DNA from: Phascolarctobacterium sp. ET69
Lineage (GTDB): Bacteria > Bacillota > Negativicutes > Acidaminococcales > Acidaminococcaceae
Direction: 5' to 3'
Length of the DNA: 64,000 nucleotides
NCBI RefSeq assembly: GCF_023336935.1
Contig: NZ_JAMBLR010000001.1
Coordinates: 310,001 to 374,000, forward strand
Under the pieces are notes generated by a model. It saw nothing but the letters and a program-made list of their open reading frames with translations, ran no database searches and was not told the origin of the DNA. Every line of letters starts with the position of its first letter. Position 1 is the first letter of the stretch. Position numbers and translations under genes: made by a program. Positions 28,966 to 32,041 of this stretch are shown one piece after another.

Positions 28966-30204
28966 TTATTCTTTGGGGCCTACCATACGAGCTGCGCTCA
29001 TAATGGCAATACGGCCATGTTCAAAAGTCAGCCCGCCCTGGAAATACACATTATATGGCTCACGGCACGGACCGTCAGCACTTAATTCGATAGAAGCGCC
29101 CTGTACGAATGTTCCTGCTGCCATAATAATTTCATTCTGATAACCCGGAATCATGGCAGGAACAGGCTCTACATGAGCGTCAACCGGAGAATTTGTCTGG
29201 ATTGCAACACAGAAATTGCATAATTTTTCACGTGTTTCCAAACGTATAGCCTGAATAATATCGCTGCGCACTTCTTCCGGCAGCGGTTTTACCGAATAAC
29301 CAAGGTTTTTAAAAACAGCCGAAGCGAAAATTGCAGTTTTTACGGCCTGCGTTACAACATGAGGCGCAATAAACAAGCCCTGATAAAATTCGCGTGCCGT
29401 ATCACCCAATGTTGCCCCCATCTCGCCGCCTAATCCCGGAGCTGTAAGACGGTATGAAGCAAGTTCCACCAAATCGGAGCGCCCGGCTATATAGCCGCCA
29501 GTAGGAGCAAAACCGCCGCCCATATTTTTTATAAGAGAACCTGCAAGCAAGTCCGCGCCGACTTCCGTGGGTTCCTGTTTTTCAATAAATTCGCCGTAGC
29601 AGTTATCTACAAAGCAGATAACATCAGGCTTAACCTTTTTTACGGCTGCGCATATCTCGCCTATTTGCGCTACATTAAGCGTTTTACGCACACTGCTGTA
29701 ACCGCAGGAACGCTGAATATGTATTAAGCGCGTTTTATCTGTAATAGCACTGGAAATTGCCTCTAAATCCGGCTTGTCGTCTTGCATGGGAATTTCTTTA
29801 TAAATAACGCCTAAATCTACAAGCGAACCCGGCGTTTTTACAGGGCTGCCGATAATGGTCTGCATGGTATCATACGGTGTTCCGGTTGCAGCTATCATCT
29901 CGTCACCTGCACGCAGTACACCCAAAAGAGCTACTGCCAGCGCATGTGTGCCGCTTACAAACTGTGAACGTACCAGCGCTGCTTCCGTATGGAAAATTTC
30001 TGCGTAAATTGCGTCAAGGTTCTCTCGCCCAACATCGGAATAAGCATAACCGGTTGTAGGTTTTAAGTAATAATCTGAAACCATGTGGTTACGGAAAGCC
30101 TTCATTACTTTTTCTGTGTTAAATAAGGCGGCTTCTTCATATATTTTAGAATATTTTTCTACATCATTAAGTGCTGTTTTTTCAATTTCTGCAAAGTCTA
30201 CCAT
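28966..30204 (-). CDS. ynbB: PLP-dependent methionine gamma-lyase-like protein (YnbB, aluminium-resistance family)
   Basis: This is a fold-type I PLP enzyme of 412 residues. The PLP Lys lies in GSLIKNMGGGFAPTGGYIAG, the Asp that holds the pyridine nitrogen in CFVDNCYGEF, and the Ser/Gly/Thr phosphate site in VSGTHALAVALLG. The family is labelled methionine gamma-lyase or aluminium-resistance protein, but its true reaction is not settled. It follows hflX by 9 nt, the same order as in Bacillus (hfq-hflX-ynbB). Confidence 0.9.
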   Translation of the reverse strand: MVDFAEIEKTALNDVEKYSKIYEEAALFNTEKVMKAFRNHMVSDYYLKPTTGYAYSDVGRENLDAIYAEIFHTEAALVRSQFVSGTHALAVALLGVLRAGDEMIAATGTPYDTMQTIIGSPVKTPGSLVDLGVIYKEIPMQDDKPDLEAISSAITDKTRLIHIQRSCGYSSVRKTLNVAQIGEICAAVKKVKPDVICFVDNCYGEFIEKQEPTEVGADLLAGSLIKNMGGGFAPTGGYIAGRSDLVELASYRLTAPGLGGEMGATLGDTAREFYQGLFIAPHVVTQAVKTAIFASAVFKNLGYSVKPLPEEVRSDIIQAIRLETREKLCNFCVAIQTNSPVDAHVEPVPAMIPGYQNEIIMAAGTFVQGASIELSADGPCREPYNVYFQGGLTFEHGRIAIMSAARMVGPKE

Positions 30205-30213
30205 TTAAATCAT

Positions 30214-32028
30214 TCACTCGCTTTTTAAAATATATTCATTGTATGCTTCCAAATCTTCTACCGGCAGAATAACTTTCATTACTGCGCCATTTTCGGTATA
30301 TTCCTGCTCTAAAACATTAGCTGTTTCATGAAGCTGGGCAGCTTTGGCTGTTTCCGCATAAGGAATACACAAAGTAACTTCCACGGCTTTGCTTTTAAGA
30401 TGTGATTCTATCATCTGCTGCAAAGTTTCAAGGTTTAACTTTTTAGCTGCCGATATACAAACAGTATCTTCTTCCAGTGCTAATCTGTCAGCCAGTTTGC
30501 TATCCGGAGGCAGTCTATCTATTTTATTATAAACCGTAATAACCGGCTTTGTTTCTGCGCCGATTTCCTTTAAAACTTCGTGTACCGCCGCGGCCTGTTC
30601 TTTGTAAAGCTCGTGGCTTACGTCGATAACATGCACCAGTAAATCCGCTTCCGTTACAACTTCAAGCGTAGAACGGAAAGCGGCAATCAGCTGATGCGGC
30701 AGGCGCTGAATAAAACCAACCGTATCGGTTATGATTATTTCCTGCTTATTGGGAAGCGTTAGCTGGCGTGTAGTTGGGTCTAACGTTGCAAAAAGCTGGT
30801 CTTTGGCATAAATATCAGAATTTGTAAGTGTATTAAGTAGTGTTGATTTGCCGGCATTGGTATAACCTACAAGGCTCACTTCAAATACATTGTTCTTTTT
30901 GCGCTTGCTGCGGTGCAACGAACGTACTGCTTTAACCTTTTCAATCTGGTCCTTAATAAAAGCAATGCGGTCGCGGATTCTGCGGCGGTCAACTTCAAGT
31001 TTCGTTTCACCAGGGCCGCGTGTGCCAATACCGCCGCCGAGCCTGGAAAGCATAAGGCCTTTGCCCATAATACGCGGCAGCGTATATTGCAGCTGTGCCA
31101 GTTCAACCTGTAATTTGCCTTCGTTGGTACGTGCGCGCTGGGCAAAAATATCAAGAATGAGCGCTGTTCTGTCCAAAATTCTGATGCCCATAACACTTTC
31201 GATATTGCGCTGCTGTGCCGGGGAAAGTTCATCGTCAAAAATACATAAGTCGATATTTTCCTGCTGGGCATATAAAGCAAGCTCCTGCACTTTGCCTCTG
31301 CCTATAAAAAATGCCGGGTCAGGCTTGGGGCGTTTTTGTATAAACTTCTTTATTACAGTTGCACCTGCCGTATCGGCAAGCTGTTTTAATTCTTCGAGTG
31401 AATCGTCAACAGTCCACAGCGAATCGTTTCTTCCCCACTCCATGCCTATTAAAATGGCTCTTTCAGACATAACCTGCAAAGAGGCAGTTCCGGTCTGCTT
31501 GTCGAGTATGCGCTCTATCGTGCTTACGGTATTAACAAAGTTAATGTTTTCAGCGTCTTCTATACTATACGGGCCGTAACATTCAGCAGTGTAATTTTCA
31601 TTGCTGTCTATGCCGGTTATCAGCCCGAAAGTCAGTTCAGATTTGGTAAAATCCGGCGAAGCAACGCCGATGGCAACCATGGCATCGTATTTATTGTTTT
31701 TTAAAGCAGAAATATCAACGCCGCTTAAATACGGATTGCCGCCCGGATGCGTATGTATGCAGCGTATACCGCTTAGGCGTCCTGCTCCGCGCCTGCCGCT
31801 GAAGGTTGGCAATTCCACGGTAGCATTGTCACCCACTGCAATTTCTATAATCTGGCCGCTGCGTGTAATATAAACGGAAATTTCCCTGTTTATATACTCT
31901 GTAATATCCGCAAGTTTAACAGCAAGTTCCTGCGAAACAAGCTGCGGCGACTGCATATCGTACAGTTTCTGCAGTTCTGCTATAACGCTGTCGCGTATGC
32001 CTTTTATATTACCTTTAATTTCACGCAT
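30214..32028 (-). CDS. hflX: GTPase HflX with a JAMM-motif N-terminal extension
   Basis: HflX is a ribosome-splitting GTPase active in stress. Residues ~190-604 are the usual protein: the HflX glycine-rich domain (FIGRGKVQELALYA), coiled coil, then the G domain with VGYTNAGKSTLLN, DTVGFIQRLP and YNKIDRL. The first ~180 residues are extra. They contain HTHPGGNPYLSGVD at 92-105, an exact HxHx7Sx2D metal motif of JAB/MPN-type isopeptidases and RadC, with a candidate upstream Glu49. At 604 residues it is much longer than E. coli HflX. The function of this domain is unknown. Confidence 0.94.
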   Translation of the reverse strand: MREIKGNIKGIRDSVIAELQKLYDMQSPQLVSQELAVKLADITEYINREISVYITRSGQIIEIAVGDNATVELPTFSGRRGAGRLSGIRCIHTHPGGNPYLSGVDISALKNNKYDAMVAIGVASPDFTKSELTFGLITGIDSNENYTAECYGPYSIEDAENINFVNTVSTIERILDKQTGTASLQVMSERAILIGMEWGRNDSLWTVDDSLEELKQLADTAGATVIKKFIQKRPKPDPAFFIGRGKVQELALYAQQENIDLCIFDDELSPAQQRNIESVMGIRILDRTALILDIFAQRARTNEGKLQVELAQLQYTLPRIMGKGLMLSRLGGGIGTRGPGETKLEVDRRRIRDRIAFIKDQIEKVKAVRSLHRSKRKKNNVFEVSLVGYTNAGKSTLLNTLTNSDIYAKDQLFATLDPTTRQLTLPNKQEIIITDTVGFIQRLPHQLIAAFRSTLEVVTEADLLVHVIDVSHELYKEQAAAVHEVLKEIGAETKPVITVYNKIDRLPPDSKLADRLALEEDTVCISAAKKLNLETLQQMIESHLKSKAVEVTLCIPYAETAKAAQLHETANVLEQEYTENGAVMKVILPVEDLEAYNEYILKSE

Positions 32029-32041
32029 AATTATACCTCAA

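Follow-up and report, generated by a model that had tools for sequence, protein, structure and literature searches.

The JAMM-HflX gene and its surroundings

The window (the whole 64-kb stretch of DNA that was analysed, from a gut bacterium) carries on its minus strand a gene for HflX, which in bacteria splits stalled ribosomes and makes cells tolerant of several antibiotics, and in this gene the HflX frame is preceded by a domain with the predicted fold of JAMM/MPN proteins. The features of the gene, here called JAMM-HflX, are as follows.

30214..32028, minus strand: JAMM-HflX open reading frame, 604 amino acids (TIGR03156, 496 bits; full-length model matches 50S-bound HflX)
31486..32028, minus strand: N-terminal JAMM/MPN domain, residues 1-181, as predicted from an AlphaFold2 model, structural alignments and a 42-member alignment
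31882..31884, minus strand: Glu49, predicted catalytic base (invariant in the 42-member alignment; aligns with the RadC Glu)
31714..31755, minus strand: HTHPGGNPYLSGVD, residues 92-105, with His92, His94 and Asp105 as predicted metal ligands and Ser102 as predicted oxyanion residue
31465..31485, minus strand: short linker, residues 182-188 (low model confidence, about 50-60 pLDDT)
30214..31464, minus strand: canonical HflX core (ND1, helical domain, GTPase and C-terminal domain), residues 189-604
32035..32039, minus strand: GAGGT Shine-Dalgarno-like site, 6 nt 5' of the ATG (read from the sequence)

The TIGR03156 match covers residues 190-543 and passes the curated cut-off of 216.75 bits, the core is about 40% identical to ribosome-bound HflX structures, and the full-length model (pTM 0.53) matches 50S-bound HflX with an E-value of 4e-42. 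Residues 189-604 are thus canonical HflX with GTPase motifs, like the HflX structures 5ady, 8uua and 8vki; the usual HflX, however, is about 420-460 amino acids long and lacks the 181-residue JAMM domain. Since the HflX-specific models begin only at residue 189-190 (TIGR03156; Pfam GTP-bdg_N matches from residue 209), residues 1-181 are additional to HflX. The frame starts at an ATG at 32026-32028, and relatives with as little as 32% identity keep the N-terminal domain in frame with HflX; this and the Shine-Dalgarno-like GAGGT argue that the extension is not an annotation artefact. The open reading frame and its extension are as described in an earlier, sequence-only reading of this DNA, which had noted about 180 extra N-terminal residues. 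That reading placed the domain at 31700-32028, where it does lie, but its extent is larger, from 31486 to 32028.

Ten nucleotides downstream of hflX lies a gene (28966..30204, minus strand) that by inspection probably encodes a PLP-dependent enzyme. In 57 of the named loci a group of related genes, most of them downstream of hflX, is found again; by inspection of their sequences, the recurrent neighbours in the named loci look like the downstream PLP enzyme, a LexA-like repressor, a DEAD-box helicase and CinA. This is an ordinary context with no obvious substrate among the recurrent neighbours of the named loci, and the idea of a partner gene beside hflX was rejected.

Predicted fold and active site of the N-terminal domain

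An AlphaFold2 model of the N-terminal domain, built with 42 homologues (pLDDT 84.3, pTM 0.77), has the order helix-helix-strand (50-55)-strand-strand (88-94, with the HxH)-helix (103-112)-strand-strand-strand-helix, and the topology of this model is that of JAMM/MPN domains, in agreement with the JAB/MPN likeness proposed from the sequence and not with an unrelated fold. Glu49 is indeed upstream of the HxH, but it stands immediately before the predicted strand 50-55 and not within a strand as had been thought. The leading Foldseek matches include CSN5, RadC and Mov34 (best E-value 0.0035, none below 0.001). When Foldseek's candidates were re-aligned with VIA-align, the best 50 rows were all apparently of the JAMM/MPN fold, from the proteasome, signalosome, EMC, BRISC, AMSH/Sst2 and archaeal JAMM proteins. 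The best of these is PfJAMM1 (5ld9; Z 7.9, 3.3 Å over 109 residues), followed by Rpn11 (Z 6.7), RadC (6.6) and AF2198 (6.4), with CSN5 within Z 6.4-6.6, where Z differences of less than 1 count as ties. All of these Z values are below 8 and middling taken alone; the whole list of rows is one fold family.

PfJAMM1, Rpn11, CSN5, AMSH, BRCC36 and AF2198 share with the JAMM-HflX domain its predicted fold and the complete signature of Glu plus HxHx7Sx2D, but identity to such JAMM/MPN+ metallopeptidases is about 9-18%, and the domain studied here has extra N-terminal helices and is fused to a GTPase. The Prok-JAB model (PF14464) gives 15.8 bits with the window's domain, below its gathering threshold of 25 bits, and matches 24 of the 42 relatives weakly (E up to 0.1; best E 6e-4). 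For RadC (PF04002) the Pfam profile search at the gathering threshold listed no match to the window's protein, and eight of the 42 relatives match weakly (E up to 0.1; best E 0.0019). An hhalign comparison with a profile of 18 RadC proteins brings the Glu and HxH...S..D columns of the two JAMM folds into register at a modest 69% probability (P 4e-5), and the RadC motif is HNHPSGDPxPS where that of the JAMM-HflX domain is HTHPxGxxxLS. The earlier label "RadC-type" is therefore partly apt: PfJAMM1 and Rpn11 rank highest with RadC not far below them, and in the profile comparison RadC gives a supportive but weaker match. A separate RadC is also encoded in the Phascolarctobacterium sp. ET69 genome.

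The neighbours of this fold include a bacterial Ubl-deubiquitinase complex (8tyx) and Cap3 (9ild), which would fit a domain that removes a ubiquitin-like modifier, in the manner of BilC or Cap3 of bacterial conjugation systems. We consider this very improbable, as inspection of the named loci found no Ubl-, E1- or E2-like recurrent neighbour within 4 kb of hflX.

The exact HxHx7Sx2D motif reported by the sequence-only reading is present at residues 92-105. Translating the 64-kb window in all six frames yields this pattern twice, once by chance, so the motif by itself is weak evidence and was rejected as the sole evidence for a JAMM domain. It is raised above chance by the predicted fold and by conservation in the 42 relatives, which were chosen by whole-domain similarity without use of the motif: Glu49, His92, His94, Ser102 and Asp105 are invariant in all 42, and of the 180 positions only 16 are invariant, these five included (hypergeometric probability 3e-6).

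Distribution and conservation of JAMM-HflX

The phylum sample of 398 Bacillota genomes contains a clear HflX in 305 and gave 74 profile matches to the domain. One of these, a 239-amino-acid frame in genome G397 (E 7e-5), lies outside any long HflX frame and, judged by its length and weak score, may be RadC-like; without it, 73 of the 398 genomes have the JAMM domain on HflX. Apart from the G397 frame and short frames on broken contigs, no stand-alone domain was found in this sample. In every carrier of the sample in which a whole HflX core was found, JAMM-HflX is the only HflX. Among genomes of the window's class, the Negativicutes, 166 of 300 carry the domain; HflX scores above the cut-off in 90 of 120 class genomes, in 84 of which its frame is at least 562 amino acids long, the others having four short HflX and two broken frames. 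The JAMM-bearing form is the usual HflX in this class (84 of the 90 genomes with HflX). About one quarter of the sampled class genomes (G003, G035, G039, G043, G047, G050 and others) have no HflX above the cut-off. One class genome has two long HflX copies.

The domain is also present in Clostridia-type Bacillota, and named carriers include Phascolarctobacterium, Succiniclasticum, Pelosinus, Sporomusa, Propionispira, Megamonas, Acetivibrio and Pseudobacteroides. Fusobacterium animalis WP_016339937 has the same architecture, with HTHPGGNPHLSSVD, and its record is annotated only as "GTPase HflX". Fusobacterium JAMM-HflX (L281) occurs on two records filed as plasmids (NZ_CP077186.1 and NZ_CP084075.1; 219 kb and 2.1 Mb), the larger of which is likely mislabelled because it has the size of a chromosome. 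No JAMM-HflX match was found in phage records; one 15-kb IMG/VR contig (L280) encodes the protein, but it may be flanking bacterial DNA or a contaminant.

On the HflX-core tree, cores with and without the domain are interspersed, with 12 changes of which at least five are forced and among which gain and loss are not distinguishable; gain, loss or transfer of the domain has thus happened more than once. The short HflX of genome G109 (L191) groups with a carrier with full support and is closely related to the carrier-type core L136 (G077); this JAMM-less HflX is likely a recent loss.

Of the 73 carriers in the phylum sample, 60 have an intact HxHx7Sx2D motif; the 13 that have lost it belong to three families. 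In a pooled set of 138 distinct loci, 129 retain the five active-site residues, but this set is not independent, as a search pattern that included HTH was used to retrieve part of it. With these counts and the 42 invariant relatives, conservation of the motif in long HflX proteins is as the sequence-only reading anticipated. Long HflX proteins that retain the domain without the motif are found at L165-L170, L177, L178, L180, L275-L277 and L279. L185, a fourth degenerate case among long HflX proteins, escaped the profile search.

Since these three families keep the domain without the motif, not every long HflX requires catalysis. A viable rival to an enzymatic role, the main one, is therefore that the domain is a non-catalytic, MPN minus-like module whose surface acts as a wedge or dock, aiding splitting or blocking reassociation of the subunits. 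It has a parallel in mycobacterial HflX, where, according to a review (PMC12493154), an unrelated and short N-terminal extension promotes ribosome splitting without any enzyme. A scaffold, however, would need none of the five active-site residues, catalytic Glu included, that are invariant in 42 diverse relatives, and we regard this rival as rather unlikely. The "dead binding domain" of the earlier reading is accordingly disfavoured for the window's protein but fits a minority of lineages.

A possible proteolytic step at the ribosome

We favour the reading, at a probability of roughly 60%, that the protein is an HflX with an N-terminal JAMM (MPN+) metallopeptidase which is placed at the ribosome and cuts a peptide or isopeptide bond of a protein there. 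The parts of this explanation with direct support are the fusion itself, the fold as predicted and the conservation of the active-site residues. Because the full active site is conserved an enzyme is favoured, and judged from sequence and model JAMM-HflX is most likely an active, ribosome-tethered metallo-(iso)peptidase, which suggests that something on the ribosome is cut during rescue. The HflX core would bind the 50S/70S and split stalled ribosomes as in other bacteria, and the short linker would tie the JAMM domain to ND1 and so place it at the subunit interface. By analogy, its side may be the one where, according to PMC12493154, the mycobacterial extension contacts uL16 and rRNA helix 38 and reaches the H69-71 junction; that extension is also an N-terminal addition, but of 39-58 amino acids and not a 181-residue enzyme-like domain. 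The predicted ligands His92, His94 and Asp105 would hold a zinc ion, with Glu49 activating water and Ser102 stabilising the intermediate, and the peptide or isopeptide bond that is cut would belong to a protein exposed on a ribosome that has stalled or been split. As classes of substrate we consider most likely the tail of a ribosomal protein, a factor bound to the ribosome, or a peptide that is nascent or was aborted. The domain probably has a docking or wedge role as well, since some lineages have lost catalysis and yet kept it.

The domain might instead act on HflX itself or on its GTPase cycle, by self-processing or metal-dependent regulation; the two domains are joined by a short linker that is poorly ordered in the model, and fused peptidase domains do sometimes process themselves. 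The linker sequence varies, however, and no conserved cleavage-site-like motif was seen in it, and we think this improbable. A specific target would be bL27, whose N-terminal extension is removed in Firmicutes and which is a close neighbour of uL16 beside the peptidyl-transferase centre, the region in which the N-terminus of HflX should lie. This candidate is weakened by the presence in the same genome of the dedicated bL27 protease Prp (PF04327, E 5e-23), and many Bacillota are entirely without the JAMM domain; maturation of bL27 by JAMM-HflX was rejected as most improbable.

JAMM-HflX is a new domain architecture made from two known families. We found no description of a fusion of HflX with a JAMM, RadC or metalloprotease domain in the open-access literature, judged mostly by titles and abstracts, and the pairing may already be implicit in database annotations; the passages of PMC12493154 consulted here mention N-terminal HflX extensions in some Clostridium and Paenibacillus and make no JAMM identification. 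With one copy of the domain on the only HflX detected in a carrier genome (phylum sample), a single point mutant can test its role. On the ribosome-tethered peptidase reading, and as a tentative extension of it to which we give slightly less than even weight, Negativicutes, other anaerobic Bacillota and Fusobacteria may have a rescue pathway in which HflX splits the stalled ribosome and the JAMM domain, in a coupled step, cuts at a specific site and so marks or edits the ribosome or the nascent chain. If the peptidase is active, a large group of anaerobes would rescue ribosomes with the help of a proteolytic step that apparently nobody has looked for.
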